Below, one piece after another: positions 5,700-30,279 of a stretch of DNA of 32,672 nt. The notes under the pieces are model-generated. The model searched no databases. It saw only the letters and a list, made by a program, of their open reading frames with translations, and was not told the origin of the DNA. The translations under genes and the position numbers were made by a program. Within the stretch, counting starts at the first letter, position 1. Each line of letters starts with the position of its first letter. Source of the DNA: a virus; IMG/VR virus record IMGVR_UViG_3300036761_002666, positions 1-32,672 of that record. One strand, 5' to 3'.

Positions 5700-6434
5700 C
5701 TACGTTTCGCTGAAGTCAATCGTGAACAGCCGGGGATTCCCGTCCTCCGGTGTGCCGTTCGGCACCACCCAATTCACCCAGTAGGCGAAGTATTGCCCAA
5801 TTTCCAGGTCGCCAATATCTATGGGACTAGTGTTAAGGGTCGGCGGTGTCCCGTAGCCGGGCGCCGGGCCCGCCGTTGTATTCGCAGTCGGCGGCGTGCC
5901 AGATGAGAGGGCGCCACCATCGTCCTCGTAAGAATCAGATGAGCCACCCGACACCGTTGCCCGCAGCGACGAGGCCCCATAGTCCCCCGGCGTGGTCGTC
6001 CGGTAGACCTTGTAGCCCGAGGCCCCAGCCACCGTCTCCCAGGTCAGTGTGACCTTCTTGGTCGTATCGTCAACGTTGATGCTCGCTTCGTCGCATGGTT
6101 GGGTCTCCCCGGTTCCGTTGTAGGCAGTCAGCATGTAATACTTCAGACCGGTGGATCCCCAGGTGCCGCCGCCGCTCGGCGCTCCGAGGGCAAGCTCCGC
6201 CCCATAAGGAGGCATCACCGTCACCGACTCCAGGGCGAATCTGGCCATGCCGCTCCCGTCAGTCGTCCCCACGGCCGCGATTTCGCCAATCAGATCCTCC
6301 AGCGTTCGGTCCCCGGCGTTCTGGGCGAAATACTTCAGGGCCGTGGAAAGATCTCCGGCATGGATCAACTCCCACTCCTCGCTGGTGATCTGTTCGACTC
6401 CATCGTTCGCGAAGTGCTTCATCATCCCGCTCAT
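5700..6434 (-). CDS. Tail protein with fibronectin-III-like domain
   Basis: A 244-residue protein. ATG 6434 follows GGAGGGTAGT, and the previous gene's TAG is 18 bases upstream. Residues 85-160 have the hallmarks of a fibronectin type III or related Ig-like fold: YYMLTAYNGTGETQP, VTLTWETVAGASGYKVYR and a later SSDSYEDDGG. FnIII domains are frequent add-ons in phage tail proteins. Residues 1-75 contain an acidic helical region (EEWELIHAGDLSTALKYF), and 170-244 hold Pro/Thr-rich linkers and a final strand-rich segment. Placement three genes after the tape measure fits a tail-tip structural protein. No catalytic motif is seen. Confidence 0.7.
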   Translation of the reverse strand: MSGMMKHFANDGVEQITSEEWELIHAGDLSTALKYFAQNAGDRTLEDLIGEIAAVGTTDGSGMARFALESVTVMPPYGAELALGAPSGGGTWGSTGLKYYMLTAYNGTGETQPCDEASINVDDTTKKVTLTWETVAGASGYKVYRTTTPGDYGASSLRATVSGGSSDSYEDDGGALSSGTPPTANTTAGPAPGYGTPPTLNTSPIDIGDLEIGQYFAYWVNWVVPNGTPEDGNPRLFTIDFSET

Positions 6435-12221: not shown

Positions 12222-12806
12222 TCAGAGAGCCACCGGGAAGCCGAGGTACGGTGCCAGCAGGAGCAGGAGGCCGGGAATCTGCTCCACGTCCTGCATCGTG
12301 TAGCTGTACTTCCCGAGGGTCTCGCTCTTCAGGCCCTTCCCCCCGCCCTCGCCCCCGAAGTAGGCCGCCATGGTCAGCACGCCGAGCTTGAGGTTCGCCG
12401 GGACCGCGGCGTAGCCAACGTCAGATGTCACCTTCACGTTCTGCAGCCCCTCCGTCCACTCCACATCGCTCAGGCGCTTGACGATCCCCGTGTCAGCGTA
12501 GACGCGGTATCCGCTTGCCGCGACCACCGTTGAGGCATCCCAGGTCGGTGTGGCGTTCCCGTCCACCTTGATGCTGGTCACCAGGATCACCGGACGCCGT
12601 GGCAGGAAGAGCCGAAAACTGCCGGTCCCGTCGAGCAGATCCACTCGACCCGTCTCCCTGACGATGGCCCGACCGTTCGCTGCGGCTGTCTCGGTGATCC
12701 ATGCCTCGACGCCGGCCAGGATAGCGGTGAGCTTTGCGTCCTGCGACGTGTCGGACAGTGTAATCCCCATATGGGCTTTCAGTTCAGCGAGCGTCGCGAG
12801 ACTCAT
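12222..12806 (-). CDS. Head-tail connector (gp6-like)
   Basis: A 194-residue protein. ATG 12806 follows GGAGGCCAGC and overlaps the FkbM stop as ATGA; a longer frame from 12839 lies over the previous gene. Typical HK97 gp6-like features are LATLAELKAHMGITLSD at the start, AILAGVEAWITETAAANG, then strand-rich FLPRRPVILVTSIKVDG, SGYRVYADTGIVKRLS and a C-terminal helix with LKLGVLTMAAYFGGEGG. These small helical rings sit under the portal and join it to the tail. The gene continues the head-completion set that was interrupted by the sugar-transfer cassette. Confidence 0.85.
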   Translation of the reverse strand: MSLATLAELKAHMGITLSDTSQDAKLTAILAGVEAWITETAAANGRAIVRETGRVDLLDGTGSFRLFLPRRPVILVTSIKVDGNATPTWDASTVVAASGYRVYADTGIVKRLSDVEWTEGLQNVKVTSDVGYAAVPANLKLGVLTMAAYFGGEGGGKGLKSETLGKYSYTMQDVEQIPGLLLLLAPYLGFPVAL

Positions 12807-13564
12807 GCTGGCCTCCGTGCAAAGAACAGCCCGAACCACCAGTCGTAGGGAACAATCTGGACATCGGAAAATCCCTGAGCCACAAGGAACGCCTCCAATT
12901 CGCTAGCGGTGAACCGCTCGTAGCCTTCCACCATTGCCTGATCTGGGATGCTGCTCGGCCACGCCTGGTCCGGGCGTAGCGCCGCCATGTTGGGTCCGCC
13001 GATCTCGTGATATTCGCCGATGACCTGATCCACCAAGTCCAGGCGCGTCGCGGTGAAGAGAATCGGCCACTCGGAGCCCTCGCAATCCAGCTTGAGAAGA
13101 TGGATTCGGCGTAAGCCCTGCGCCGTCACGGTGGTGAGAATGGTATCCAGGGGGATCGTAACGACCGCCTGCCCTTCCCCGGGCCGCAGGACGTTGCCGC
13201 CACCCGAACAGGATGGATCCTCGGATGGCGTAAAGTGCAGGATCACAGGCCCGCGCCCGTCGGATCGCCAGACCGCTCGATGAGCAATCTCTGCGCGACC
13301 CGCTTCGCATGCAGCCGAGAGATTTTGAAGGACCTGCTCAAAGTTGCTCCTCTCGGCTTCAAAGGCATAGACCTTACCCGCTCCCCGCAAGAGGACCGCG
13401 TGAGAAAAACAGCCGCACTGCGCGCCGACATCAACAATGATCGCCCCCGGGGGAAAGGCATCCGGCAGGCGGTACTCGTTCTCCGTGACGACGTGAGTGT
13501 AGTTCCTCTCGTCGTCAAGCCCGTCTCGCACGAGAAAACCGTCTGCTAGCCGACGAGCCGCCAT
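12803..13564 (-). CDS. FkbM-family methyltransferase
   Basis: A 253-residue SAM-dependent methyltransferase. ATG 13564 follows GGAGGTCAC. Motif I is VDVGAQCGCFS at 44-54 (SAM-binding Gly loop) and motif II is VYAFEAERSNFEQV near 65-79. VTIPLDTIL (135-143) and HLLKLDCEGSEWPIL (155-169) are the FkbM signature (P-LD, then K-D-EG-E). EYHE follows at 184-187. FkbM enzymes methylate hydroxyl groups of sugars, and some act on glycans of cell or virion surfaces. It is the last gene of a cassette of two glycosyltransferases and a double methyltransferase, so methylation of a transferred sugar is a fair inference. Its stop overlaps the connector start by 4 bases. Confidence 0.9.
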   Translation of the reverse strand: MAARRLADGFLVRDGLDDERNYTHVVTENEYRLPDAFPPGAIIVDVGAQCGCFSHAVLLRGAGKVYAFEAERSNFEQVLQNLSAACEAGRAEIAHRAVWRSDGRGPVILHFTPSEDPSCSGGGNVLRPGEGQAVVTIPLDTILTTVTAQGLRRIHLLKLDCEGSEWPILFTATRLDLVDQVIGEYHEIGGPNMAALRPDQAWPSSIPDQAMVEGYERFTASELEAFLVAQGFSDVQIVPYDWWFGLFFARRPA

Positions 13565-13574
13565 GTGACCTCCA

Positions 13575-14783
13575 TCAATCCGGCCGAGAAAGCAGGATGT
13601 GCCCGCGAAAGGTCGGGATGAACTGCCCGATCAATCCATGGGCAGCCGCAAAGTCCATGCAGGCTCCGCGCAACTCCGGAACATTGGTCACATCGTCCAC
13701 CACAATCAGGCCCTTGGGCGCCAGACAGGGGAGCACAAGAGCCAGGTCGTGCAAGAGCCCCCTCGCGCTATGGTCCCCGTCAACATGGATGAGGTCGATC
13801 TGCTCGGGAAGACTGAGCATTGGAAAATCTTGCGTATTCTGCGCCGACGGGACGATTGTTCCCTTGAATAGCCGCTGGATGTTGGCGACCGCCTCCGTGA
13901 CCGGCACGCCGTAGGCTCCGCAGTCAAAGAGATACAGTCGCTCGATCTGCGGATGTCCCATCACCATGGCGATAGAGGAGTAGCCGTAGAGGCAGCCGAT
14001 CTCCAGCACCGTCTTGGGTGTGAGTGCCTGGGCGTAGCTGTAGTACCACTCGTAGTAGTTGCTGGATCTGCCCGGATGGTCCGCCTGTGTGGCGTAGGCG
14101 TCCTTCGGGGAGAAGTACGGCTCGATCTCAGCCCGGAGATTCTCAATGCGCTTCGCTCCGTCGAACCGCCGACCGCGGGGGGTCTTGCGCGCCGTGATCA
14201 CGAGGTTGCTCGTGCCCTCATACCCCGACTCCAGGATCTCCATGCCGCGCGCCTCAAGCATCCCGCGCAGCATGGCAATCGTGTAGCCGGCCCGGTGGAA
14301 GTTCTCGGGATACTCTTGCCCGCCGTAGACCTGGAGAGCGACCTGTCTCGGCCCCCAGCGGTCGCCGACCTTCCATCCGTGCTCGGTTTCAAACGGCCCG
14401 ACTACCTTGACGATTGGATTGAGGATGAACCGCGCGAGCGCCTCCAAGTCTGGGCACTTGAGATGCAGCGTCCCTCCGACCGCCAGGAGTCGAATCCATT
14501 CATCCAGTACGGCATCCGCTTGCGCTTGCGGGAAATGCTCCAGGACGTCATTCACCCAGATCTCCAACGCGGCGCCGTCCTTGAACATGTCGGAGAGGTC
14601 GCTGACGTCCGCGCGCAGATAGGTCACGTCATCGGGCGGGACGAGATTTCTGGAGTCGATGTTGATGATGCCGTTCCCCATCCAGTCGCCGCCAGAACCC
14701 AGGTTCAACCGAATCGGGGGAGGGGTGGTGGAGTTCATCGCCGCATGCGCTCCCTTCAGAGAGTGAGAAACATTTCGGTGCAT
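13575..14783 (-). CDS. Tandem two-domain SAM methyltransferase
   Basis: A 402-residue protein with two class I methyltransferase domains. Domain 1 (about 24-180): IRLNLGSGGDWMGNG at 24-38, then VNDVLEHFPQAQ near 78-88 and GGTLHLKCPD, a type 11-like core. Domain 2 (about 225-400): TVLEIGCLYGYSS at 258-270, IDLIHVDGDHSARG at 329-342 and GLIVVDDV at 358-365, a Methyltransf_24-like core with DGDH. The start is taken at ATG 14783, coupled to the GT9 stop; ATG 14738 is an alternative. Tandem methyltransferase fusions usually act on sugars or lipids in surface glycan clusters. It lies between the second glycosyltransferase and FkbM, with small gaps, so all four look co-transcribed. Confidence 0.9.
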   Translation of the reverse strand: MHRNVSHSLKGAHAAMNSTTPPPIRLNLGSGGDWMGNGIINIDSRNLVPPDDVTYLRADVSDLSDMFKDGAALEIWVNDVLEHFPQAQADAVLDEWIRLLAVGGTLHLKCPDLEALARFILNPIVKVVGPFETEHGWKVGDRWGPRQVALQVYGGQEYPENFHRAGYTIAMLRGMLEARGMEILESGYEGTSNLVITARKTPRGRRFDGAKRIENLRAEIEPYFSPKDAYATQADHPGRSSNYYEWYYSYAQALTPKTVLEIGCLYGYSSIAMVMGHPQIERLYLFDCGAYGVPVTEAVANIQRLFKGTIVPSAQNTQDFPMLSLPEQIDLIHVDGDHSARGLLHDLALVLPCLAPKGLIVVDDVTNVPELRGACMDFAAAHGLIGQFIPTFRGHILLSRPD

Positions 14784-14785
14784 CG

Positions 14786-15991
14786 TCAGTTCCCCCGGCC
14801 GGGGTGGCTGGCGAAGGCACGAACCTCAGCCATGATCTGCTCCACCGTGGCCCGTCCGAAACAGCGGGACATTGCAAGACCGAGCCCCGGAACCTCCGGA
14901 ATCGCTTCGCGCGTGAGGTGTGGGCAACTGGTGTTGTCCGTGCCCCAACGGGCATTGTGGATGCAAGGCGTCGCGCAGGTCTGTACGGGATGGGCCGTGG
15001 GGTAGTCCCGGCAGTGATTCACCCCAAGTTGCGAATTGAACACCGCGACCGTTGGCCGACCGAGAATCCCGCCCCAGTGAAAGGCTGCGGTATCCATCGA
15101 GACAATCAGGTCGGCCACGGAACAGACCGCACCCATCATGCGCAGCGAGAGCCCCGCGAGCGTCTCCACCGGGCCAGGGAGACGGGCGGAATGCAAGAAG
15201 CGGACACCCCACCCATCGGAGATGAGTCGCTCGGCAAGTTCCGCGAACCAAGGGTAACTCCTCGCCTGGGAGAACGAGATCGGGGCGACTACACAGGTCG
15301 GGACCCCGTTGGTCCCTGGCTGCGCAAGCAGGCGTCGCGCCTCCACCTGCTCTTCCTCACGAATGGCAATCTCGGAATGCGGGTTCTTGACCTTGAGCCC
15401 GAACCATTCCGACATGATGTCCAGCCGGTTCCTCCATCGCAGGCCGTTGCCTTCTCCGGCCGTTCCCCCGTACCGCACGAAGAAATTCTCCCAGACGTGG
15501 CACGGCTTATTGATATCCTCGACCAGGTCGTACTCGTGGGACCACGACGGTTCGACCGGGCCGTCGTGTGAAACGAGATGGACGCCGGTCCCCTCAAACA
15601 GGGGGTGGAAGCGTTGTGGGATGGCGTAGGCGACGCGAATTGCGGGATACTGCTCCCGGAGTGCCGGGAAGAGCATGCTGGCATTCAGATGATCCCCGAT
15701 CCCGGCGTATCGCAGAAGGATCAAGAATTTCTCCCCGGGCCTGAGTTCATCGAGCCGTGATCGCCGTGTCCGGAAGGTCGGGATGTGCGGGTGCTTCGCC
15801 CCGATGAGCGTCCGTAGTTTGCTCCAGGCATCCCCGTTGTCCTCCCCCGTCGTGGGCAGAGCGGACGCCGAGAGTGCTACCAACCCCAACGCAGCGAGCC
15901 GATGGGCGCGTTCCTCCGGGATGCAGACAACTTCCCCGGGCCGGTAGTCTCGGTACTCCTCGTGAATGGGAGTCAATACCGTTACGTCCAT
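14786..15991 (-). CDS. GT9 glycosyltransferase with N-terminal phage-type domain (copy 2)
   Basis: A 401-residue protein. The start is ATG 15991, sharing one base with the preceding stop (TGATG); a longer frame to 16126 lies inside the previous gene. Residues 1-40 (VTVLTPIHEEYRDYRPGE to RLAALGLV) match the N-terminus of the neighbouring copy. Residues 80-400 form a GT-B glycosyltransferase family 9 (ADP-heptose:LPS heptosyltransferase-like) enzyme: LLRYAGIGDHLNASMLFPAL near 92-111 is the GD loop, and VSMDTAAFHWGGILGRPT near 297-314 is the donor-binding D-x-x-HWGG-x-G-PT motif. The donor sugar and acceptor are unknown. Its sequence resembles the upstream copy along the whole length, so the two arose by duplication and then diverged. 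Confidence 0.88.
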   Translation of the reverse strand: MDVTVLTPIHEEYRDYRPGEVVCIPEERAHRLAALGLVALSASALPTTGEDNGDAWSKLRTLIGAKHPHIPTFRTRRSRLDELRPGEKFLILLRYAGIGDHLNASMLFPALREQYPAIRVAYAIPQRFHPLFEGTGVHLVSHDGPVEPSWSHEYDLVEDINKPCHVWENFFVRYGGTAGEGNGLRWRNRLDIMSEWFGLKVKNPHSEIAIREEEQVEARRLLAQPGTNGVPTCVVAPISFSQARSYPWFAELAERLISDGWGVRFLHSARLPGPVETLAGLSLRMMGAVCSVADLIVSMDTAAFHWGGILGRPTVAVFNSQLGVNHCRDYPTAHPVQTCATPCIHNARWGTDNTSCPHLTREAIPEVPGLGLAMSRCFGRATVEQIMAEVRAFASHPGRGN

Positions 15992-17235
15992 CAGGTCTTC
16001 CCCGTTGGCCAGAAGGCCTTGACCGCCTCCGCAATGCGGGTGGTCGAGGCGGACGGATAGCAGCGCGACATCTCCATGCCTAATCCGGGAAAGATGGGCA
16101 GCGACTCCGTCGTGTGTTTGGCACACCGTATGCCGCCGGGGCTATACCGGGAAAACAGGCAGGGCGTCTCGCAAACCTGGATAGCCCGCGCCGTGGGGTA
16201 GTATTTCGCGTACGTCGCGCCATCATTGACGTTAAAGATGCCAAGCGTCGGCGTGCCAAGTACCCCGCCCCAGTGAAAGGCGGACGTATCGACCGAGATG
16301 ATGAGGTCAGCCACGGCGCAGAGGGCCCCCATCTGCCGGAGGGTGAGTCCGGTAATGGTCGGGATGTCGGTCGGAATGGCAACGGAGTAGAGGAGCGCGA
16401 CGCTCCAGCCGTCCGCCTGGATGCGATGTGCCAGCTCCGTGAACCAGGGATAGCACTTGATCGAGTTGCCAGAAAACGGGGCGATGAGGCAGACGGGCTT
16501 CCCCGTGCCCAGCGTCCCAGCGAGCCGCGCCTTCGCCGCAGTGCGCTCGTCCTTTTGGATCACGATATTCGTGCGCGGATTCTTGACCGCAAGGCCAAAC
16601 CATCGGGACCACATATCAAGCCGGTTGCGCCACTTCAGGCCGTTGCCGTCTCGCCCGTTCGATCCGCCGTATTGATTGAACACAGTCTCCCAGATGTGGC
16701 AGGGGATCGAGATGTCCTCAACCAGGTCAAAGGTGGAGAGGAATTCTGATCGCACCGTTCCCCTGTGCTCCTCGTAACTTGCGGCGGCGAAGACCGATTC
16801 GTAGGGCGTCAGTGCGAGCCCCGTCTGGTCGAAGAGCGTGCGGTACCGTTGCGGACACGCATAGGTGACGTGGACGCCCGGGTACTGATCGGCGAGCATG
16901 GGGAAGATCATGGAGGAAATCAGGATATCCCCCAGCCCGCCGTACTTGCGCAGGATGAGCAATTTCTCGCCGTCCTTGAGCATGTCGAGCCGCGACCGGC
17001 GCGTCGGAAAGGCCAGTGGACCATCGGAGGGGCGGGCACTGACGAGTTTGCGGAGTTCCTTCCAGGCGACCTCGGTCTTCTGTCCCTCGATGGGATTCCG
17101 CCCCATGATCGCCTGCCATTCGACGAGGCCCAGTTCGGCAAGCCGGCGCGCGCGTGCATCGGGGACGCAGAGCACGTCTCCGCGCCTATAGGTCCGGTAG
17201 TTCTCGTGGATGTTCCGCAAGACCGTCACGTCCAT
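15991..17235 (-). CDS. GT9 glycosyltransferase with N-terminal phage-type domain (copy 1)
   Basis: A 414-residue protein from ATG 17235, one base after a small Cys-rich gene. Residues 1-40 (VTVLRNIHENYRTYRRGD, then RARRLAELGLVEW) form the shared short domain. Residues 88-400 are GT9-like: ILRKYGGLGDILISSMIFPM near 94-113 and ISVDTSAFHWGGVLGTPT near 313-330. A later CETPC and CAKH may form a Cys pair. GT9 enzymes add heptose or related sugars to glycolipids, but here the genes are embedded in the virion gene set and probably use a virion or host-surface acceptor. It is probably active, as both the N-domain GD loop and the C-domain HWGG motif are intact. Confidence 0.88.
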   Translation of the reverse strand: MDVTVLRNIHENYRTYRRGDVLCVPDARARRLAELGLVEWQAIMGRNPIEGQKTEVAWKELRKLVSARPSDGPLAFPTRRSRLDMLKDGEKLLILRKYGGLGDILISSMIFPMLADQYPGVHVTYACPQRYRTLFDQTGLALTPYESVFAAASYEEHRGTVRSEFLSTFDLVEDISIPCHIWETVFNQYGGSNGRDGNGLKWRNRLDMWSRWFGLAVKNPRTNIVIQKDERTAAKARLAGTLGTGKPVCLIAPFSGNSIKCYPWFTELAHRIQADGWSVALLYSVAIPTDIPTITGLTLRQMGALCAVADLIISVDTSAFHWGGVLGTPTLGIFNVNDGATYAKYYPTARAIQVCETPCLFSRYSPGGIRCAKHTTESLPIFPGLGMEMSRCYPSASTTRIAEAVKAFWPTGKT

Positions 17236-17236
17236 G

Positions 17237-17419
17237 TCAGTCGCTCTCTCGCTCCCTCGGGTTCATCGGGGACTGCATCGCCCGATCGTGCCCGATCCGT
17301 CGCTCAACGGGACACCGCCCGGCAGCGCAGGCGCGGCAGAGATCCTCCCCGCGCTTCACAGAGACTTCGCACCCGCAGTCGCAGCTACAGCGCTCGTCTC
17401 GATCACGTTTCCGAGCCAT
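17237..17419 (-). CDS. Small Cys-rich protein upstream of glycosyltransferases
   Basis: A 60-residue frame with Cys-rich middle (CSCDCGC at about 11-17, then LCRACAAGRC near 27-36), highly charged at both ends, possibly zinc- or iron-binding. ATG 17419 has GAGGCGGG about 8 bases upstream. The stop lies 1 base before the GT9 start, which suggests coupled translation. I do not recognise the family. It may be a small regulator or a partner of the glycosyltransferase, but that is a guess based on adjacency alone. Confidence 0.55.
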   Translation of the reverse strand: MARKRDRDERCSCDCGCEVSVKRGEDLCRACAAGRCPVERRIGHDRAMQSPMNPRERESD

Positions 17420-17421
17420 GG

Positions 17422-17523
17422 CTATGCCCGCCTCGGCTTGCCGGCCGCCTGCCCCGAGGCCGGAGACGGCATAGCGCGGTCCATTGGCGCTCCGCGCTTT
17501 GGCTTTCTTACCTTATTACCCAT
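17422..17523 (-). CDS. Tiny basic ORF (33 residues), uncertain
   Basis: ATG 17523 to TAG 17422 encodes 33 residues, MGNKVRKPKRGAPMDRAMPS followed by a short Ala/Gly/Lys/Arg tail. It is preceded by AGAGGAAGGGGAAG within the end of the previous gene, a plausible ribosome site, and it fills the gap between two genes. Short basic frames can occur by chance in GC-rich DNA, so this is only a possible gene. Confidence 0.35.
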   Translation of the reverse strand: MGNKVRKPKRGAPMDRAMPSPASGQAAGKPRRA

Positions 17524-17798
17524 GGCTGCTTCTTCCCCTTCCTCTGCGCTGCCTGCTCAAGACCCAACTGCCCGGCACCGTTGTCATTGACAGGGGCCCG
17601 GTCGGATTCTCCACTTTTGGGCTCGTGGGTTCCCTCGTCGCCGCTCTCGATGCGGGACTCTTCGCCCTCTGGCGCTTTCACCACAAGCCCCAGGCCCTCC
17701 AGCCGGCTCGCTCGCTCGGGTGATGTCTCAAAAGACGCCCCCGGTTGGTACGTCTGCCCATCCTCGTTCAGGGGTTGCTGCACGATCACACGACCCAC
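17508..17798 (-). CDS. Small protein with the domain shared by the GT9 enzymes
   Basis: A 96-residue protein. I place the start at GTG 17798 because AAGGAGG is 7 bases upstream; a TTG at 17804 would sit too close to that site. Residues 1-38 (VIVQQPLNEDGQTYQPG then SPERASRLEGLGLVV) match the first 40 residues of both GT9 proteins: a strand, Y--G, then P-x-RA-x-RL-x-x-LGLV. This short domain occurs in small phage proteins encoded near capsid genes. The rest is an acidic, Glu/Ser/Gly-rich linker and a basic C-terminus (GKKQPWVIR). It is the first gene after the capsid gene and may be a head-associated or decoration-type protein. The function is inferred. Confidence 0.7.
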   Translation of the reverse strand: MGRVIVQQPLNEDGQTYQPGASFETSPERASRLEGLGLVVKAPEGEESRIESGDEGTHEPKSGESDRAPVNDNGAGQLGLEQAAQRKGKKQPWVIR

Positions 17799-17869: not shown

Positions 17870-18994
17870 CTACTTCACCCCGGAGAGATACCGCACCGCG
17901 TTCGGGACGGCCAACTTCCCGTCGATCTCCTCGAACGCCTTAACGCGCACTTGATGCTTGCTGAAGGCATCGCCACCCTCGGTCGTGGTCTCGACGCCCA
18001 TGGTCTCGTTCTCGCCGAGGTAGTAGAACGTCCAGTCCCCGAACCAGATCTCGCTCTCGTTCGCGGGCGATCCGCTCCCGAGGTTGGTCGGGATGTCGTT
18101 CTGCTCCATCACCGGGCGACCCAGGATCGTGGCCGGCGCACCAGCCAACCCGGCTATCCACAGGTAGTTGCCCGTGGTGCTCTCCTTGAGCTTCCGGATC
18201 TTGTTCGTGATGCTGTCGGGGATGAGCCAGGTTCCATTGCGCCGGTACTGCGACGGCAGCACATGGTACAGGTCGATCAGGTCATCCCCAGCCAGGTTCG
18301 CCCCGGCCTGCGTCACAGTCGTCACCAAGGCCTTGTCGGCTCGGAACCCTCTGGGCTGCCCCGAGCCGGTGCCGTTCACGATCACGACATCCTCGCCCGC
18401 GCCGAACGCCTCGGCGAAGAGCAGGGTGAGGAGTTGGATGATGTCCACGCCCGCGTTGGCGAAGAGGCTGCGGGACATGGGGACTTCCGCCAGGCCGAGC
18501 TTCGCCGTGAGCGGAATGCTGCCGAACACCGGCTGCGTGCCGGTGGCCGCCGTGTTCTCGCCAGGCCAGGACATGCCGGGTTTGGTGGTCACCGCGGGCA
18601 CGTCCTGCTTCGCCCCGATGGGGAAGATCCGGACGATGTTGCGCATGATCGGCATCTTGGCCAGTTCCACGCATACCTCGGAGCGAAACTCCGTCGGCAC
18701 GAGGTAGCCGCCGCCGGTCGCACTCGCCACCGACAGGTCGCGCCAGAGCGGCCCGCCCAGCCCAGGCACCTCCGCCCACCGGGCCTCGGGATGGACCAAC
18801 CCCTTGAAGAACTGCACGATCTTGGCGGCGCTCTCGGGCGTGAGGCCCTGCCGCCCCGTCATCTGGTCCTGCGTCGGGTAGACCGCAAACCGCCGGTCCA
18901 CCTTCGTCAAGCCCAGCGCCTCGATCTTCTCGGTGATGAGCGAGGCGACGAACTCCTTCAACTGCTCCATGTTCATCGTAGTCTTCTCGGCCAT
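17870..18994 (-). CDS. HK97-family major capsid protein
   Basis: A 374-residue protein forming the capsid shell. The start is ATG 18994 (MAEKTTMN), chosen for GGAGGAAGTGAA just before it; a longer frame to 19030 overlaps the protease end. Hallmarks: SVASATGGGYLVPTEFRSEV near residue 95, LAKMPIMRNIVRIFPI, the E-loop/helix region, ILGRPVMEQNDIPT near 295 and a C-terminal YYLGENETMGVE, HQVRVKAFEEIDGKLAVPNA. About 90 residues lie before the conserved core and may serve as a short delta-type scaffold segment that the protease removes. The exact cleavage site cannot be read here. It follows the protease by 1 base. Confidence 0.95.
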   Translation of the reverse strand: MAEKTTMNMEQLKEFVASLITEKIEALGLTKVDRRFAVYPTQDQMTGRQGLTPESAAKIVQFFKGLVHPEARWAEVPGLGGPLWRDLSVASATGGGYLVPTEFRSEVCVELAKMPIMRNIVRIFPIGAKQDVPAVTTKPGMSWPGENTAATGTQPVFGSIPLTAKLGLAEVPMSRSLFANAGVDIIQLLTLLFAEAFGAGEDVVIVNGTGSGQPRGFRADKALVTTVTQAGANLAGDDLIDLYHVLPSQYRRNGTWLIPDSITNKIRKLKESTTGNYLWIAGLAGAPATILGRPVMEQNDIPTNLGSGSPANESEIWFGDWTFYYLGENETMGVETTTEGGDAFSKHQVRVKAFEEIDGKLAVPNAVRYLSGVK

Positions 18995-18995
18995 T

Positions 18996-21206
18996 TCACT
19001 TCCTCCGCTTGCCCCTGGCCGACCGGGCATCCCCGGTCAGGCCGCCAAGGGCCTGCTGGATTCCTTGGGCCACGGCCGCCGCCAACTGCTCGGCGTCCAC
19101 TTCGATCACGAGGTCCTCTTGGCCCGAAGGCGACGGAGGAGCTGGGGTTGCGGGGAGTGGGGGCGCGGCCTCAGTCGGGGCCACCGCCTCCAGTTCGATG
19201 ATGACTTCAGGCGACTCCGGGGCCGGGACTGGCGCCGGGGCCTCCAAGGTGAATTCGATTTCGATGGGTTCCGGCACGACGGGAGCGGGAGGCTCCGGCG
19301 TCGGGACGGCATCCAGTTCAAGGATCGGTTCCTCGGTGGGGGCGATCGGTGGTACTTCCTGCCGCTGCTCAGGAGGCGGGGAAATCACCGCAGGGGTAGG
19401 AGTTGGGGCTTGCTCTTCCTCTGGCAGTGGCTCGGCCTCGGCCAGGATCTCCTGCGCGTGCTGCATGATCGCCTTCACGCGACCGAGGTTGCGCTTGTTA
19501 AGGACGGCGCCGGCCCTGACTTCCACGGCGGTGGTGCCATGCAGCAGGTCGAGGTATGCCTTGGCGAAGTCTCCGAACAGGAGCGGGTCGGTTCGCTCTC
19601 CCTCCGGGGTCATGGAACGGATCGCCTCCTGTCGGTCAGCGGGCAACGTCTCGAAGGCCCGCTGCTGTGCGAGGATCCGCGCCAGAACAATGAGCCGCTC
19701 CCCGAAGGGATCTGCCCCGAACTGCTCTTTCCATTCGATCTTCGTGCCGGATAGCGCTGCCATCTGCTCGAACAACTCCGCCGAGATTGCGATGAGGCGA
19801 ATCCGCCCGTCGAAACGGAGCGAGACGAATTCCACCAAGCAGGTGTTCGGGAGTATCGAGGCTTCGGGTGCTGGAAGCGCGGCCTTCCCTTTCGCCAGCT
19901 CCGGCCACTTCGCTGTCAGGGTTTCGGGAAGGGGCACACCCTCTTGGAAGACGGTATCGTTGATCGCGGCCCACAGCGCGACCGCCGTCTCCGCGTCCTT
20001 CGCGCCAGCGAGGACATCCTCGATGGTCTCGTAGTCCTTGAACTCCGGCGGTTCCTTCTCGTAGACGGCGTACTCCTTGACGAGATGGTTGTAGACGCCC
20101 TTCCGGTCGCCCTCCGGAATCGCTACCCCTCCTCGACCGCCCAGGAGCGCAGTCATGGCCGCGACGGTTCCTCGCCAGTGGTGAGCGAGCCCACCGTTCT
20201 GGATGTCATGATGGGGCAACTTGTAGGCACCGAGAGTATCGGCTGCCGCGCTGTCAACCCAGCCGTGCCCCTGCCGGTACTTCGTCCAGGTGGATGCCGG
20301 CGCCTCCTCCGCGTCCACGCCAGCCCACTTGCGCATCCGGGTGCGCGCCGCCGCCGCGTCCCACGCCGTACCCTCTGCGACCTTCTGGTCCAGCGCTCCA
20401 TGCGCGGAGAACGGGACAACCCCCCTGTCCACGACGGGCGGTGCTGTCTGGGTCTCGGGCGGCTTTTCCGCGCTGAACGCCTCCACCTCAACCGGCCGCT
20501 CAGGTTCCCGCAGGCTGGCCCAACTCCCCAGGTCGATGACTTCTCGCTCAGCGGGCATGCGGTATTTCTGCGTGAGCAGGTTGAACTCGGCCTCACGCAG
20601 AATGCCGCGCTGCATCGCATTGACGAGGGCATTGGGGTTAGCCGGGACGGCACAGCAGGACAGCTCCAGAAGCTCCTGCTTCTTGTAGATCCGCCTGGGG
20701 GCTGTGGGTTTGCTGCCCTTCGCGCTCTCGCCCTGTGGCTCCTCCGGGTCCTCCCAGTCCCACGGCAGGAAGCCGACGGAGACGGTCCGCATATCGCCGT
20801 CGAGGTAGAGCCGGTAGATCGTGTCGGCGAAGGCGAACGTCTCAGCCTTGGCAAACCTCTGGTGGAAGAGCAACTGCTTGGCCTCGGCCTCCAGGTTCTT
20901 CCACACCTTGACGGCGTGGCCGATGGACGGCTCGTGATAGTCATGCCCAAACAGCAGCACCGGGTTGAGGCGATAGTTCTTCAGGTCCCAGCCGGGGACG
21001 CTGATGATCTCCTCGTATCGATCCAGCGTTTCATCCGAGCCGACGAACTCCAGCGTCCGGTCTTCGGGATTCCCAACGGCCCGCACGTGCAGGTTGATGT
21101 TCGGCATGGCCAGCCGTGGCGGCCCCTCGCGGGTAGAGAGGTCCACGGGATTCAGCGCCTTGCCCGCCAGAAATTCCTCGACGAAATATGCCCGCAATTT
21201 GCTCAT
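18996..21206 (-). CDS. Prohead protease with large scaffold-like C-terminal part
   Basis: A 736-residue fusion. ATG 21206 is preceded by GGGAGAAGGACG. Residues 35-205 are a caudoviral S78-type prohead protease: LLFGHDYHEPSIGHA (His88) and ELSCCAVPANPNAL (Ser183) form the likely catalytic His and Ser, with RTVSVGFLPWDW between. Residues 278-380 hold a domain reading WAGVDAEE, GAYKLPHHDIQNGG and VYNHLVKEYAVYE, which is found attached to other phage head proteases. Residues 564-592 are helical (LNKRNLGRVKAIMQHAQEI), and 600-700 are Pro/Glu/Ala-rich. The last 40 residues are a helix and a basic tail (ARGKRRK). This suggests protease, linker domain and scaffold in one chain, unusually long for the family. 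Confidence 0.92.
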   Translation of the reverse strand: MSKLRAYFVEEFLAGKALNPVDLSTREGPPRLAMPNINLHVRAVGNPEDRTLEFVGSDETLDRYEEIISVPGWDLKNYRLNPVLLFGHDYHEPSIGHAVKVWKNLEAEAKQLLFHQRFAKAETFAFADTIYRLYLDGDMRTVSVGFLPWDWEDPEEPQGESAKGSKPTAPRRIYKKQELLELSCCAVPANPNALVNAMQRGILREAEFNLLTQKYRMPAEREVIDLGSWASLREPERPVEVEAFSAEKPPETQTAPPVVDRGVVPFSAHGALDQKVAEGTAWDAAAARTRMRKWAGVDAEEAPASTWTKYRQGHGWVDSAAADTLGAYKLPHHDIQNGGLAHHWRGTVAAMTALLGGRGGVAIPEGDRKGVYNHLVKEYAVYEKEPPEFKDYETIEDVLAGAKDAETAVALWAAINDTVFQEGVPLPETLTAKWPELAKGKAALPAPEASILPNTCLVEFVSLRFDGRIRLIAISAELFEQMAALSGTKIEWKEQFGADPFGERLIVLARILAQQRAFETLPADRQEAIRSMTPEGERTDPLLFGDFAKAYLDLLHGTTAVEVRAGAVLNKRNLGRVKAIMQHAQEILAEAEPLPEEEQAPTPTPAVISPPPEQRQEVPPIAPTEEPILELDAVPTPEPPAPVVPEPIEIEFTLEAPAPVPAPESPEVIIELEAVAPTEAAPPLPATPAPPSPSGQEDLVIEVDAEQLAAAVAQGIQQALGGLTGDARSARGKRRK

Positions 21207-21351: not shown

Positions 21352-21918
21352 TTACTTTGCCGCTTTATGTGGGCACTCATCACCTTTCCTTGTTGCCCAA
21401 TTGCAGTTCATGCAAAGAATCCTGAACTTGTCTTTCGGCACTCCCTGACGAACGATATCCGCGTACACTGTCCAACCTCTTCTTCCACCGAGCGCTTTCC
21501 GGTGTGCCGCGCCTCCGCCGTTAATATGGTCAACCGTCAGGAATTCAACGATGGTCTCCCCACAACACACGCACCTCTCCCCGAGCGTACTGAAAATCTT
21601 GTTCTTCAGGCGGTGACCATAATTCTTCCTGGCCCTCCTGACAGAATCGGGATTTTGCTTGTAGTCGGCTCCGCGTTTGTGACCATATTTGAGCTCCAAC
21701 TCAGCAAGTTTAGCCTTCTGCCGCTCCTTGTAGCGGGGATCGTTTCTATGCTTCTTCTGGTGCTCCCTTGTTCTCGCCGCCAAAAGAGCCCGGTATCCAG
21801 GATCAGATTCGCATCTTTCTTCGTAACGTTTCTTCGACTTCTTAGCAATGCGCTCCCTATTTTTGTAATAGTAATCAAGGGCAGCCTTTCTCTCCCTCTC
21901 TGGATACTTATGTGCCAT
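21352..21918 (-). CDS. HNH homing-type endonuclease
   Basis: A 188-residue protein. I take ATG 21918 as start; an upstream TTG at 21972 is less likely. Residues 1-110 are highly basic and helical, with many Lys/Arg/Tyr (DNA-binding). Residues 114-180 are a zinc-ribbon HNH: ERCVCCG (Cys116, Cys119), VDHINGGG (Asp130, His131), then CMNCNWA (Cys169, Cys172). Such free-standing HNH genes are common parasites of phage genomes. Visible A+T-rich codons differ from the GC-rich neighbours, a sign of transfer. Hairpins H2 and H3 sit 18 bases upstream and 17 bases downstream of the gene, so gene plus hairpins may be one insertion unit. Confidence 0.88.
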   Translation of the reverse strand: MAHKYPERERKAALDYYYKNRERIAKKSKKRYEERCESDPGYRALLAARTREHQKKHRNDPRYKERQKAKLAELELKYGHKRGADYKQNPDSVRRARKNYGHRLKNKIFSTLGERCVCCGETIVEFLTVDHINGGGAAHRKALGGRRGWTVYADIVRQGVPKDKFRILCMNCNWATRKGDECPHKAAK

Positions 21919-21936
21919 TTCGCTCGGTCTTTTCCC

Positions 21937-21959
21937 CCCGCCCTTGATCAGGGGGCGGG
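21937..21959 (-). repeat. GC-rich hairpin H2, right of the HNH gene
   Basis: Inverted repeat CCCGCCC / GGGCGGG with a 9-base loop that includes TGATCA. It lies 18 bases before the HNH start on the transcribed strand and could act as part of its leader. Its stem differs from H1 and H3 but the loop is shared with H3. Confidence 0.65.
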
Positions 21960-22025
21960 TGGGCACGGTCAATTGTCGGTTGTCGAGTCCTCTACCTCAT
22001 ATGCTCACCGGGCTACGCCGCACAC

Positions 22026-22331
22026 CTATGGGCCCCAGTCGCTCACGTCCACGCGGATTTCGGTTTCATATCGTTCAGCCCCGATGGTGCACCGCAGTTG
22101 CAGGTAGTAGATGCCGGGTGCTGTTAGACCGGCCGCCGTCGAGTCGAACAGGGCTGACAGCTCGGCCGCGGCCGGATCCCACGTCGCCGCCGCCCAGTCG
22201 AACCCTGGCACCACCGCCCGCGCCGCCGTCAGAATCCGCCTCTCGGCGGAACTCAAGATATAGGCGCCCGCAATTCTGCGCACCACCTTGACGATGATGT
22301 CTCGCTTCTCGCCTTCGTATAGGATAATCAT
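22026..22331 (-). CDS. Small virion-like protein, unknown
   Basis: A 101-residue protein. ATG 22331 follows GGAAGGGC and overlaps the repeat protein's stop by 4 bases. It has a strand-helix-strand feel: IILYEGEKRDIIVKVVR at the start, a helix around 25-45 (SSAERRILTAARAVVPGFDW) and strands IYYLQLRCTIGAERYETEI then VDVSDWGP. No enzyme motif is visible. The fold resembles small Ig-like or beta-sandwich proteins that phages encode near fibres. It ends before the HNH-hairpin unit. Confidence 0.7.
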   Translation of the reverse strand: MIILYEGEKRDIIVKVVRRIAGAYILSSAERRILTAARAVVPGFDWAAATWDPAAAELSALFDSTAAGLTAPGIYYLQLRCTIGAERYETEIRVDVSDWGP

Positions 22332-23647
22332 GGCTGCCCTTCCAGGTGGAGCCTGGCCTGCTGCTCTTCCAGATAGTACCTACCGGCTTTCTCGTCCCCG
22401 TAGATTCGCGCCGGCTGCTCTTCAAGATAATACCTACCGGCTTTCTCGTCCAACCGGAATCTGCCAAAAAGCTCTTGCAGGTCAGTGTCCTGCAGGGGCA
22501 CCCCCACTACGGTCCCCATCAGGTCGGCCAGAACTTTCAGGTCCAGGATGTCTGCCCGCGCCAGTCTGGCCTTCAACTGTTGGACGGTCTCTGTGAGCGA
22601 CGCACTGGACGTATCCGCCCTCGACAGTCGGACGGCATTTTTGACCATATCCGACGCGCGCCAGTTCCCGACCACCGGGAGGCAGGTACTGTCCCCGAAG
22701 GTGGTGATGCACGAATCGTTCGGCGGGCCGCTGTAAACCCCGTCCCCGTTCGTGTCCAGGTAGAAGGTGTGGGTCGAAGGTCGCCAGACGCCGACTTTCG
22801 ACCTGCCGTCCCCGTTCCAGTCCCCTATGATGGGGGTGTCCCCGGCTTGGCCTAGTCCCGTTATAAATCTGTCATTAGGTGGTCCGGAGTACGTCCCGTC
22901 CCCGTTGTAGTCCAGGTAGAAATTCCCGGTCGCTGGGTCGAAAGCGCCGATCTTCGACTTCCCGTCCCCGTTCCAGTCCCCTATGATCGGAACGACCCCC
23001 GCGACACCAAAACCGGCGTAGTTTTTGTCGTACAGGCCATTCCACGCAAAGTCCCCGTCCCAGTCCAAGAAAAAATGCCCGGTGGAAGGGCGAAAGGTTC
23101 CGATCTTCGTGTAGCCGGTGCCGGTCCAGTCCCCGACGATCGGAAGGTCCTCCGTGACCCCCCAGACGACGGTCTTATCTATGGCAGCGTTCCACAACCA
23201 GTCCCCGTTATAATCCAAGTAGAAAGAGCGGGCACTCTGGCGGAAACTCCCGATCTTCGACTTCCCGTCCCCATTCCAGTCCCCTATGATCGGAATGTCC
23301 CCTGCCGACCCGAAAGCACTGACCTTGTCAATTAGAGAGCCCTCCCAAATCCAGTTCCCGTTGTAATCTGCGTACCAGGTAAGGCCAGTCGCAGTACGAA
23401 TGATACCGATCTTTGCTGTTCCAGAACCGTTCCAGTCCCCGATGATCGGGATGTCTCCGGCATTCCCCCCAAAGGCAGAGATCTTATCCTTCGCTGGTTC
23501 CCAGATCCCGTTGCCGTCGTAGTCCCCGTAAAAGTATCCCGCCCAAACCCCGGGCAAACCGGGCTTGTAGACCCCGACCTTGTCGGACCCTGCTGTCACC
23601 CTCACCGCCAGGCTATCTGTAAGCGTCATCTGGATAAGGTCAGGCAC
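22328..23647 (-). CDS. FG-GAP/VCBS-like repeat protein, possible Ca-binding adhesin
   Basis: A 439-residue protein. The start is GTG 23647 with AGGAGATAA upstream. Residues about 20-330 hold six repeats of 50-52 residues, each with a consensus of IPIIGDWNGDGKSKIG followed about 20 residues later by FYLDYNGDG. Glycine- and Asp-rich loops of the form DxNGDG are likely Ca-binding, and the repeat resembles blades of a beta-propeller. Residues 395-439 hold two copies of DEKAGRYYLEEQ. Similar proteins are known from bacterial surface and secreted proteins, so host origin is possible. Here it is in a phage head-module insertion and may bind the host surface. No signal peptide is seen. Confidence 0.82.
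   Translation of the reverse strand: MPDLIQMTLTDSLAVRVTAGSDKVGVYKPGLPGVWAGYFYGDYDGNGIWEPAKDKISAFGGNAGDIPIIGDWNGSGTAKIGIIRTATGLTWYADYNGNWIWEGSLIDKVSAFGSAGDIPIIGDWNGDGKSKIGSFRQSARSFYLDYNGDWLWNAAIDKTVVWGVTEDLPIVGDWTGTGYTKIGTFRPSTGHFFLDWDGDFAWNGLYDKNYAGFGVAGVVPIIGDWNGDGKSKIGAFDPATGNFYLDYNGDGTYSGPPNDRFITGLGQAGDTPIIGDWNGDGRSKVGVWRPSTHTFYLDTNGDGVYSGPPNDSCITTFGDSTCLPVVGNWRASDMVKNAVRLSRADTSSASLTETVQQLKARLARADILDLKVLADLMGTVVGVPLQDTDLQELFGRFRLDEKAGRYYLEEQPARIYGDEKAGRYYLEEQQARLHLEGQP
22361..22451 (-). repeat. 54-base direct repeat encoding DEKAGRYYLEEQ
   Basis: Two near-identical 37-base blocks, 22361-22397 and 22415-22451, with only two differences, are spaced 54 bases apart (18 codons). They encode DEKAGRYYLEEQ twice near the C-terminus of the repeat protein. 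A third, degenerate part (LEGQP) follows, so the tail may expand or contract by slippage. Confidence 0.85.
22657..23590 (-). repeat. Protein-coded repeat region of six ~51-residue units
   Basis: Within the previous gene, blocks coding for IIGDWNGDG occur at roughly 153-base steps. DNA copies of the phrase cccctatgatcgg / gttccagtcccc are visible at 22815, 22970, 23120, 23270 and 23430. They mark the repeat units and are a likely site of unequal recombination. Confidence 0.75.
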
Positions 23648-24985: not shown

Positions 24986-26419
24986 TCACAGCACGCCGAT
25001 CAGTTCCAGCAGTAGCTCCTCATCCTCCCTGGCAATCGCTGCGCCCATCCAGTCCTGCGCCTCATAGGCCTCCGCATGGCCGCCGATGAGCAGACCGCCC
25101 GATGTCCCCGCGACTCCTCGCCTGTGCGGGTTCCCCGACCCGCCGACCGCCAGCGCTGGCCCGCCATTTGCCAGTTCGTAAAGCCGCCGGACGATCGCCA
25201 GTGCGTGACCCGAGAATCCCAGATCGACCGCCTGCGGCGAGACGGCGTGGACGGTCCGAGCCTCCGCGTGACCCTCGACCACGAGCCGTACAGGGTGTGG
25301 CCCGAACGTCGTGATGATCGGGCGCACCTTCGGGGTCGGGAATGAATATGGCCGATAGGCACCGCCAGCGGCCGCGGGGGTAACCGCGGGAGCAGAGAGG
25401 GCAACCCCCACACCTGAAACGACCGCAACCCCAACCGATTCACCCGTTGACCCAGGCTCTCCAGCGTCCTCACCAATACCAGAAACACTCGCGGTCCCTA
25501 CTGAAGCAGCATCAGCGCGTGCGAGAGCAAACCCCACACCTGAAATAGTCGCAGCGCCAGCCGATTCCCCCGTTGAGCCAAGTTCTGCGGCATTCTCGCC
25601 AACACTAGTGACACTTACGGTTCCGGCCGAGGCCGCTGTTCCTTGGGAGGGCGCGGCTCCCACCGCACTGACAGTTGCCGATCCGCTCGAAGTCGCAACA
25701 CCATTCGCGGTTGCCGCGCCGATACCGCCTACGCTTCCAATACCCGACGAGGCAGCGGTCGTGCGGGCGATCGCATTCGCCGCACCAATGACGGTGCCTG
25801 TGCCGCTGGCACTTGAAACCGCTGTCGCTGTCCCTGCACCAACACCGGAAGCCGATGCGGCCCCGGTAGAACTACCGACACCAACAAATGGCGATGCGCC
25901 AATGCCGGATGCTGTGCCGCTGCCACTACTAGTAACCCCAGCCGATGTCAGCGCCGCACCAACTACTGAAGTAGATGCGGCCCCTGTGGATGCCCCATCG
26001 CCACTCAGCGTCACCTGAGAAATAGCGGCGGCGGTACTACCTCCCGCAGATGAACCGGGCGAACCAGCGGTCGCACCACTAACGATTGATGGGGTAGCCA
26101 CCCCCACCGAGGAGGCGACACCGACGAATGGAGCCGCCCCGACCACAGCGGAAGTAGCGACGCCCACACTTGCAGCCGCAGTCGGCGCAACAAGCGCCCC
26201 GATGACGCTGGTACTAGCGGCTCCTGCGGAGGAACCTGCCCCCAACGTGAGTGCGACAGCGAGGACTGTCGATGCCGCGATCCCTGCGATGCTTCCGACG
26301 ATCCCGGCGATTGCTCCACTAACGCTGTCCGCTGTGGCAGTACCGGCTGCGGAACCATCTGCCTCGGTGATGCCACCGACCGCCGCTTGGTTAGTGTTCC
26401 AAAGTTGGGATGCTCGCAT
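24986..26419 (-). CDS. Gly/Ala/Ser/Val repeat fibre-like protein
   Basis: A 477-residue protein starting at ATG 26419, overlapping the upstream stop as TAATG. Residues about 21-345 are about 16 units of near 20 residues with a consensus S-S-x-G-x-A-x-x-S-G-V-G-A-A, such as GSSTGAASASGVGAG and ASVGTASVSGIGEDA. The composition is very low complexity, like a beta-solenoid or fibre shaft. Residues 354-477 are different and complex (YRPYSFPTPKVRPII, DLGFSGHALAIVRRLYEL), a likely C-terminal tip or assembly domain. The protein resembles trimeric fibres, but no family name can be given. It probably sits on the virion surface; this is inferred from its repeats and its neighbours. Confidence 0.78.
   Translation of the reverse strand: MRASQLWNTNQAAVGGITEADGSAAGTATADSVSGAIAGIVGSIAGIAASTVLAVALTLGAGSSAGAASTSVIGALVAPTAAASVGVATSAVVGAAPFVGVASSVGVATPSIVSGATAGSPGSSAGGSTAAAISQVTLSGDGASTGAASTSVVGAALTSAGVTSSGSGTASGIGASPFVGVGSSTGAASASGVGAGTATAVSSASGTGTVIGAANAIARTTAASSGIGSVGGIGAATANGVATSSGSATVSAVGAAPSQGTAASAGTVSVTSVGENAAELGSTGESAGAATISGVGFALARADAASVGTASVSGIGEDAGEPGSTGESVGVAVVSGVGVALSAPAVTPAAAGGAYRPYSFPTPKVRPIITTFGPHPVRLVVEGHAEARTVHAVSPQAVDLGFSGHALAIVRRLYELANGGPALAVGGSGNPHRRGVAGTSGGLLIGGHAEAYEAQDWMGAAIAREDEELLLELIGVL
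25384..26359 (-). repeat. Region coding ~16 degenerate 20-residue repeats
   Basis: Within the fibre-like gene, the reading frame repeats about every 60 bases, with recurring words such as gctgccgag/gcgccgac in GC-rich context. The units are degenerate at the DNA level but clear as protein. They suggest expansion by duplication. Confidence 0.7.
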
Positions 26420-29351: not shown

Positions 29352-29575
29352 TAAATTCTCCTCAATCCCTGAACTGCGAAATGCCGTTTAGGGTTCACGA
29401 GTGTCTCTATGAAAGTGACGACGCCCGTTCCCATGCAGTCCGGGCATTGCACATAGTCGCTTCCGCCGAGCCAAAGATGTCCCTTCTTCGTAGAGCCATG
29501 ACAGAGCGTGCAGGGACCTTGGAGCTTGCGGTCGTGGCCGCGTGTTCCGTCGTCTTGGGCTTGGCAGTACCCCAT
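29351..29575 (-). CDS. Small zinc-finger-like protein
   Basis: A 74-residue protein. The start is ATG 29575, sharing one base with the HNH stop (TGATG). Cys pairs at 22/25 and 44/47 (PCTLCHGSTK and QCPDCMGTG) resemble DnaJ-type zinc knuckles. Similar short proteins occur in many phages. Function unknown; it may bind RNA, protein or metal. Confidence 0.65.
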   Translation of the reverse strand: MGYCQAQDDGTRGHDRKLQGPCTLCHGSTKKGHLWLGGSDYVQCPDCMGTGVVTFIETLVNPKRHFAVQGLRRI

Positions 29576-30261
29576 CACTGGTCCTCGGTGATCGTGCTGG
29601 TCGTCACCGGCCCGATCCGATGCGAGCCGCAATCGAGACAAGCGAGAACGATCCCTTTGCCGTGTTTCCCATTCCGAAGTTCCAGATTGTCTGGATGGTT
29701 TTCAGACCGATGGCCATTGATATGATGAACCGTTTCGGAATCTAGGAGCGGTCGCTCAAGTTTACGAGCGAGGACAAGACGGTGCTCAGCGACGCGGCCA
29801 GCCTGATCTCGCATGCAGGCCATCGGATCGTCTGGCGGCAACCAGACATAGATATAGCCATGCGAGAGAACCCGGCCACCCTTCCACCCGACCGCTCCCG
29901 GTCCAGACTTCACCGGTCGAGCACGAATGGATTCAACGGTCCTAAGATAACGGGCGACGGTTCCACCTGTCCTCTTCAGACGATCACCGATTTCCTTGAA
30001 CGTGAGACTGGTGGCATATAATGCGGAGGCTTCCGCTTTCTCTTTGTCCGAAAGACGTGGCCTCTCGGTCCCACGGCGATACTTCGAATGTTGAAGAGCA
30101 AGAATGCGCTCACGGTGACGCTGGTAATGGCGCCGTGTGCTCGCACGGTCAAGTTCTGCCGCCCGCTGTGGGTCTTTCGCGCGCCATGTCGTGTCACTCA
30201 GTTTGCATGTTTCCGGGTGCGCGTCGCGATAGCGTTTCTGCACAGCGCGTCTATTACTCAT
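29575..30261 (-). CDS. HNH endonuclease with HTH segment
   Basis: A 228-residue protein. The start is ATG 30261 because GGAGGCACGG precedes it; an in-frame ATG 12 bases earlier is less well placed. Residues 1-65 are basic. Residues 80-108 (TFKEIGDRLKRTGGTVARYL) form a helix-turn-helix. Residues 134-200 are an HNH_3-type nuclease: GYIYVWLPPDDP, EHRLVLARKLERPL (His160), TVHHINGHRSENHPDNL (His179/180, Asn182). A short Cys pair (CLDCG) ends it. It is a typical mobile homing endonuclease inserted between two virion-like genes. Confidence 0.88.
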   Translation of the reverse strand: MSNRRAVQKRYRDAHPETCKLSDTTWRAKDPQRAAELDRASTRRHYQRHRERILALQHSKYRRGTERPRLSDKEKAEASALYATSLTFKEIGDRLKRTGGTVARYLRTVESIRARPVKSGPGAVGWKGGRVLSHGYIYVWLPPDDPMACMRDQAGRVAEHRLVLARKLERPLLDSETVHHINGHRSENHPDNLELRNGKHGKGIVLACLDCGSHRIGPVTTSTITEDQ

Positions 30262-30279
30262 CCGTGCCTCCAACGATCC

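Follow-up and report, generated by a model that had tools for sequence, protein, structure and literature searches.

In phage lambda, the gene order D-E-FI-FII means that gpFI is encoded directly after the capsid gene. gpFI stimulates DNA packaging, and its C-terminal domain is reportedly its head-binding part. The protein is described as acting through the major head protein in two published accounts (PMC7889075; PMC4493119). Glycans have been described on the major capsid proteins of mycobacteriophages Che8 and Rita, whose glycosyltransferases are phage-encoded, as a later article summarizes it (Freeman 2023, cited in PMC11256854). Here, we have analyzed a 32.7-kb virus record (hereafter the window, that is, the whole stretch of 32,672 nucleotides), for which a preliminary description had proposed that one short N-terminal domain is common to a small protein next to the capsid gene and to two glycosyltransferases of family 9 (GT9-1 and GT9-2). 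Our analysis confirmed that the shared domain in these three proteins is real, and gave partial support to the accompanying idea that it could dock the enzymes on the head or on a common partner.

The structural block of the window lies on the minus strand and runs from a prohead protease through an HK97-type capsid protein, a 96-residue protein, two short frames, GT9-2, GT9-1, a double methyltransferase, an FkbM methyltransferase and a head-tail adaptor to the tail genes (Table 1). The adaptor ends the interval from capsid to adaptor that contains the GT9 cluster. The small protein and both enzymes were located on the minus strand as first reported. The small protein gene is the first one after the capsid gene and is preceded by AGGAGG seven bases upstream of its GTG codon at 17798; its product begins with a beta4-alpha-beta domain (residues 1 to ~40), continues with acidic sequence of low complexity and ends in a C-terminus that is basic. 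GT9-2 carries the motifs KYGGLGD and DTSAFHWGG, and its stop codon has one base in common with the ATG of GT9-1. Relatives of the double methyltransferase come after the GT9 in four related phages (L004, L005, L007 and L009).

Table 1. Genes and domains from the capsid gene to the head-tail adaptor gene of the window, with profile and model support
Feature	Position	Strand	Support
Major capsid protein, HK97 type	17870..19030	-	PF05065 E 1e-55; phrog_10 E 3e-48
Free small protein, 96 aa, GTG start	17511..17798	-	phrog_2616 E 5e-5
GT9-2, 414 aa, N-terminal domain + glycosyltransferase family 9	15994..17235	-	PF01075 43.9 bits, cut-off 22
GT9-2 N-terminal domain	17119..17235	-	phrog_2616
GT9-1, 401 aa, N-terminal domain + glycosyltransferase family 9	14789..15991	-	PF01075 34.1 bits, cut-off 22
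GT9-1 N-terminal domain	15863..15991	-	phrog_2616 E 7e-6; AlphaFold2 mean pLDDT 93.4
Double methyltransferase, next in cluster	13575..14783	-	Methyltransf_24 56.5 bits
FkbM-family methyltransferase	12803..13564	-	PF05050 48.7 bits; TIGR01444 56.5 bits
Head-tail adaptor	12222..12839	-	phrog_442 E 7e-31

Several other features on the minus strand of the window were observed. A cysteine-rich frame of 60 residues (CSCDCGCEVSVKRGEDLCRAC; 17237-17419), possibly a small zinc-binding protein, lies between the small protein and GT9-2. A 439-residue protein (22328-23647) contains FG-GAP- or VCBS-like repeats such as IPIIGDWNGDGKSKIG and ends in short copies of KAGRYYLEEQ, and a 477-residue protein (24986-26419) consists of repeats rich in Ala, Ser, Gly and Val; a low-complexity protein like the latter stands before a ClpP-type protease in L004. 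Two frames (21352-21972 and 29575-30273) resemble HNH endonucleases inserted among the structural genes.

When each N-terminus was searched alone, phrog_2616 was the best PHROG for all three (profile match; E 7e-5, 1e-4 and 7e-6), and a phrog_2616 scan of the whole record matched these three N-termini only. Pairwise scores among them were 10 to 28 s.d. over shuffles, none of 500 shuffles scoring as high. The motif pattern that had been given for the three proteins held with one deviation, the small protein reading P-x-RA in place of P-x-x-RA. The DUF7210 model (PF23843) reached 18 to 19.8 bits with the small protein only and missed the Pfam cut-off of 27 bits. The view that a phage-type domain has been fused to GT9 enzymes was confirmed.

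With regard to the enzymatic part, both window proteins passed the PF01075 cut-off of 22 bits, the match sitting in the C-terminal part, and canonical GT9 or heptosyltransferase models begin near residue 90. In an alignment of nine relatives the GD and DTxxxH motifs were kept, with the exception of T to S in L015. The phage L004 possesses orthologues of both window enzymes (69% and 63% identical overall), which agree with them in location and in the one-base overlap of their genes, and neither has the domain; L007, L009 and L014 have single GT9 copies, also lacking it. It had to be considered whether the domain is a normal part of GT9 enzymes, but direct orthologues in L004, L007 and L009 do not carry it, and by sequence comparison the N-terminal domain is separate from GT9 proper. 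It should be noted that the domain-less enzymes of L004 start with MxVQLLH (L004:4787-4830 and 5938-5970), a start that resembles strand one of the domain (MDVTVL) and may be the remnant of a lost domain.

Comparison of the two window enzymes showed that the regions of the protein have diverged differently, with dN 0.27 and dS 1.54 in the N-domain, dN 0.76 and dS 1.04 in the linker, and dN 0.46 and dS 1.47 in the enzyme body. The N-domain, with dN/dS of about 0.2 vs 0.7 for the linker, is under purifying selection, whereas the linker is nearly free. Recent copying of the domain between the two GT9 genes was also considered and rejected, as the domain dS is close to that of the body, though both are near saturation.

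The occurrence of the domain was compared in a small sample of seven related phage records, several of which are fragments (the window, L004, L005, L007, L009, L014 and L015), and presence or absence was also checked by six-frame search with a structure-guided profile. L005 has one GT9 with the domain and a free protein of 90 residues of the same family. Three records encode a free domain protein (the window, L005 and L015), and all their GT9s of this family carry the domain; in the four records lacking the free protein (L004, L007, L009 and L014), the domain is present on none of five GT9s (one-sided exact P = 1/35). The domain-less records include lambda-type heads in L004 (cap_E capsid with gpD-like and FII-like genes) and L009 (cap_E), and an HK97-type capsid in L014. 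In the enzyme tree, the orthologous pairs WGT1/L004b (100% support) and WGT2/L004a (93%) are each split by domain presence; because both pairs split, the domain trait tracks the phage and not the enzyme lineage, the two contrasts coming from one and the same phage pair.

The adjacency of the small protein to the capsid gene holds in the window and is not constant in relatives, where the gene stands somewhere within the interval from the capsid gene to the head-tail adaptor gene. Neither L005 nor L015 encodes the free protein directly beside the capsid gene, and that of L015 stands directly before the adaptor, far from the capsid gene. L015, a distant phage, differs in further respects. The N-terminus of its GT9 is identical to the small protein of its own phage at 17 of 45 positions (z 19), its similarity to the window sequences is none or marginal, and a profile of the L015 pair matched those two places only among eight records. 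Y-x-x-G followed by a strand and a helix is what the L015 and window N-domains have in common. The joint between domain and enzyme in L015 lacks the W-x-x-LR linker found in the other records, and the GT9 and small protein genes are not neighbours. The match within the phage, the different joint and the separated genes suggest either that the fusion arose separately or that the two copies have strongly co-evolved; L015 is apparently a case of independent or co-evolving fusion. As further observations, the small proteins of the window, L005 and L015 have an acidic or proline-rich tail past the domain and short basic C-termini (KKQPWVIR, RGRPRRIP and KKPLPFRKGR, respectively), and in L005 a 430-residue protein of repeated 'PTKxALYRI' units (L005:3981-5273) stands directly before the free domain protein.

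Searches of other genomes gave few matches. By tblastn, neither the N-domain nor GT9-2 matched isolated phages and GT9-2 did not match plasmids; GT9-1 and the L015 enzyme gave one weak megaphage match in which the domain region was not covered. Viral contigs scanned with the domain alignments yielded no records beyond those already known. Across 95 genomes from the phylum of the L009 host, phrog_2616 had two matches, neither on a GT9. For the phrog_2616 protein of an unrelated genome (L012), no adjoining capsid gene was seen within the examined stretch.

The N-domain of GT9-1 was predicted by AlphaFold2 to be a compact beta-beta-beta-beta-alpha-beta fold (pLDDT 93), and the L015 N-domain model (pLDDT 86) has the same order of elements (E-E-E-E-H-E). 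Thus, structure prediction gave one fold for the shared family and not a set of unrelated ones. When small proteins were aligned together with whole enzymes in MAFFT, the small proteins came out misplaced, and these mixed alignments were excluded from the prediction. Among the structural matches of the two models was YqbF (PDB 2hjq), at Z 4.9 and 4.1. Another was the gpFI C-terminal domain (PDB 2lsm), which aligned over 41 residues at 1.9 A (Z 4.8) and over 51 residues at 2.7 A (Z 4.0); values of Z 4 to 5 are modest for a domain of 40-60 residues. GINS B-domains matched both models and ribosomal L9-N matched the window model (Z 5 to 6.6). Since L9-N and GINS B-domains score equal or higher, the fold alone is no pointer to the capsid, and since all Z values are middling, we do not claim homology to gpFI or YqbF; on the predicted models, the resemblance is limited to the fold level. 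At the sequence level, the Packaging FI model (PF14000) had no match at E 10 in six records and the YqbF model (PF14553) none at E 10, and a profile alignment to gpFI was in register but weak and alone non-significant. When solved structures were searched by sequence, using one N-terminus and the domain profile, the matches were at chance level only.

The finding that the enzymes have the domain only where the free small protein is present suggests that the domain brings them to the assembling particle. Our best hypothesis, which rests on the gpFI-like predicted fold and on co-occurrence with the free protein, is that a head-assembly docking domain directs the glycosyltransferases to the forming virion, which they would glycosylate; we infer the docking, the acceptor and the sugar, and we are about as ready to believe this scheme as to doubt it. 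The shared unit would be a small domain that docks in head assembly (phrog_2616; gpFI/YqbF-like in fold) and is put to two uses: on its own it would serve as a small morphogenesis protein, and at the front of the two GT9 enzymes as an address tag. The free protein would dock on the head during assembly, and the tag would take GT9-1 and GT9-2 to the same partner, most likely the major capsid protein or the procapsid, where the docked enzymes would glycosylate a virion protein as the particle is assembled. The neighbouring methyltransferases may modify the sugars. More generally, and with somewhat greater reserve, it could be proposed that a chaperone domain of head assembly has more than once become, in phages, an address tag specific to the phage, by which glycosyltransferases are led to decorate the assembling head, the tag and the free protein co-evolving and the tag being lost or never gained where the free protein is lacking. 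To our knowledge, how phage-encoded transferases pick their virion protein substrates is apparently an open question. If the docking hypothesis is true, a removable tag of 40 residues, common with a head-assembly protein, would answer it directly; the tag could also be used to attach enzymes to phage heads, and the numbered family phrog_2616 would gain a concrete functional hypothesis.

Several other explanations should be weighed against head docking. The partner might not be the capsid but the adaptor, the terminase or some other assembly factor, or the free protein and the enzymes might simply assemble with each other. The position of the free protein in L015 would fit such a partner, as would the close fold match to the GINS B-domain, which is a protein-contact module; however, gpFI, the best functional precedent of the fold in phage heads, acts through the major head protein, and we consider a different partner rather unlikely, though with an appreciable chance. 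Transferases can have short N-terminal modules that bind acceptors, and the domain might accordingly recognize a carbohydrate or acceptor while working inside the enzyme, the free protein being a lectin-like part of the virion. No carbohydrate-binding fold was among the best structural matches, however, and orthologous enzymes manage without the domain, which makes this very improbable.

The same orthologues, together with the closeness of the genes in the window, would agree with a by-product of recombination, in which a copy of the 5' end of that small gene came to lie before the transferase genes and supplies no more than a start, without any function. Against this stand the purifying selection on the domain, far stronger than on the linker, the recurrence of the architecture in L005 and also in L015, where the joint differs and the genes are not neighbours, and the intact predicted fold, so that we give it little credence. 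Finally, an L9-N-like domain might hold DNA or RNA and the enzymes might modify phage DNA. In favour of this are the place of L9-N among the best fold matches, the basic C-termini of the small proteins and the existence of DNA-modifying phage glycosyltransferases, as reported by a paper citing the work (Pyle 2024). On the other hand, the cluster lies within the structural block from head to adaptor, beside the FkbM and other methyltransferases, the GT9 profiles are those of heptosyltransferases, which act on glycans, and no base-modification gene was seen among the open frames read; nucleic-acid binding therefore appears improbable.

Compared with known systems, the window enzymes have PF01075 and the GD and DTxxxH motifs in common with the GT9 heptosyltransferases WaaC, WaaF and WaaQ but possess an extra N-terminal domain and are far under the heptosyltransferase equivalog cut-offs (at most 27.9 bits with TIGR02193, TIGR02195 and TIGR02201, for LPS heptosyltransferases I, II and III, vs 134 to 185). 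Like the window phage, Che8 and Rita code for transferases, and the summary of that work reports no head-docking domain for them. The literature searched contained no paper on DUF7210 or on a fusion of FI and glycosyltransferase; the earlier statement that no named system has this design is therefore upheld for the fusion and not for its parts, as the family is numbered (phrog_2616, near DUF7210) and the fold is named (YqbF, gpFI). Bacillus subtilis YqbF (2hjq) resembles the N-terminal domain in predicted fold, at middling Z and without a PF14553 match here. The lambda protein gpFI (2lsm; Popovic 2012) likewise shows a predicted resemblance in fold at middling Z, with the domain C-terminal there and N-terminal here, and its gene occupies the slot between the capsid and head-tail joining genes, as do the small protein genes of the window, L005 and L015. 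The fold, the gene slot and the reported action via the major head protein in combination make gpFI relevant. At the sequence level, the three N-termini belong with phrog_2616, which comprises small phage proteins, and near DUF7210, whose cut-off they do not reach; the family has been known as a free small protein, and its fusion to GT9, seen here, is not described in the literature searched. Thus, the architecture is new, and its kinds, a phage GT9 and a head-assembly small protein, are known.
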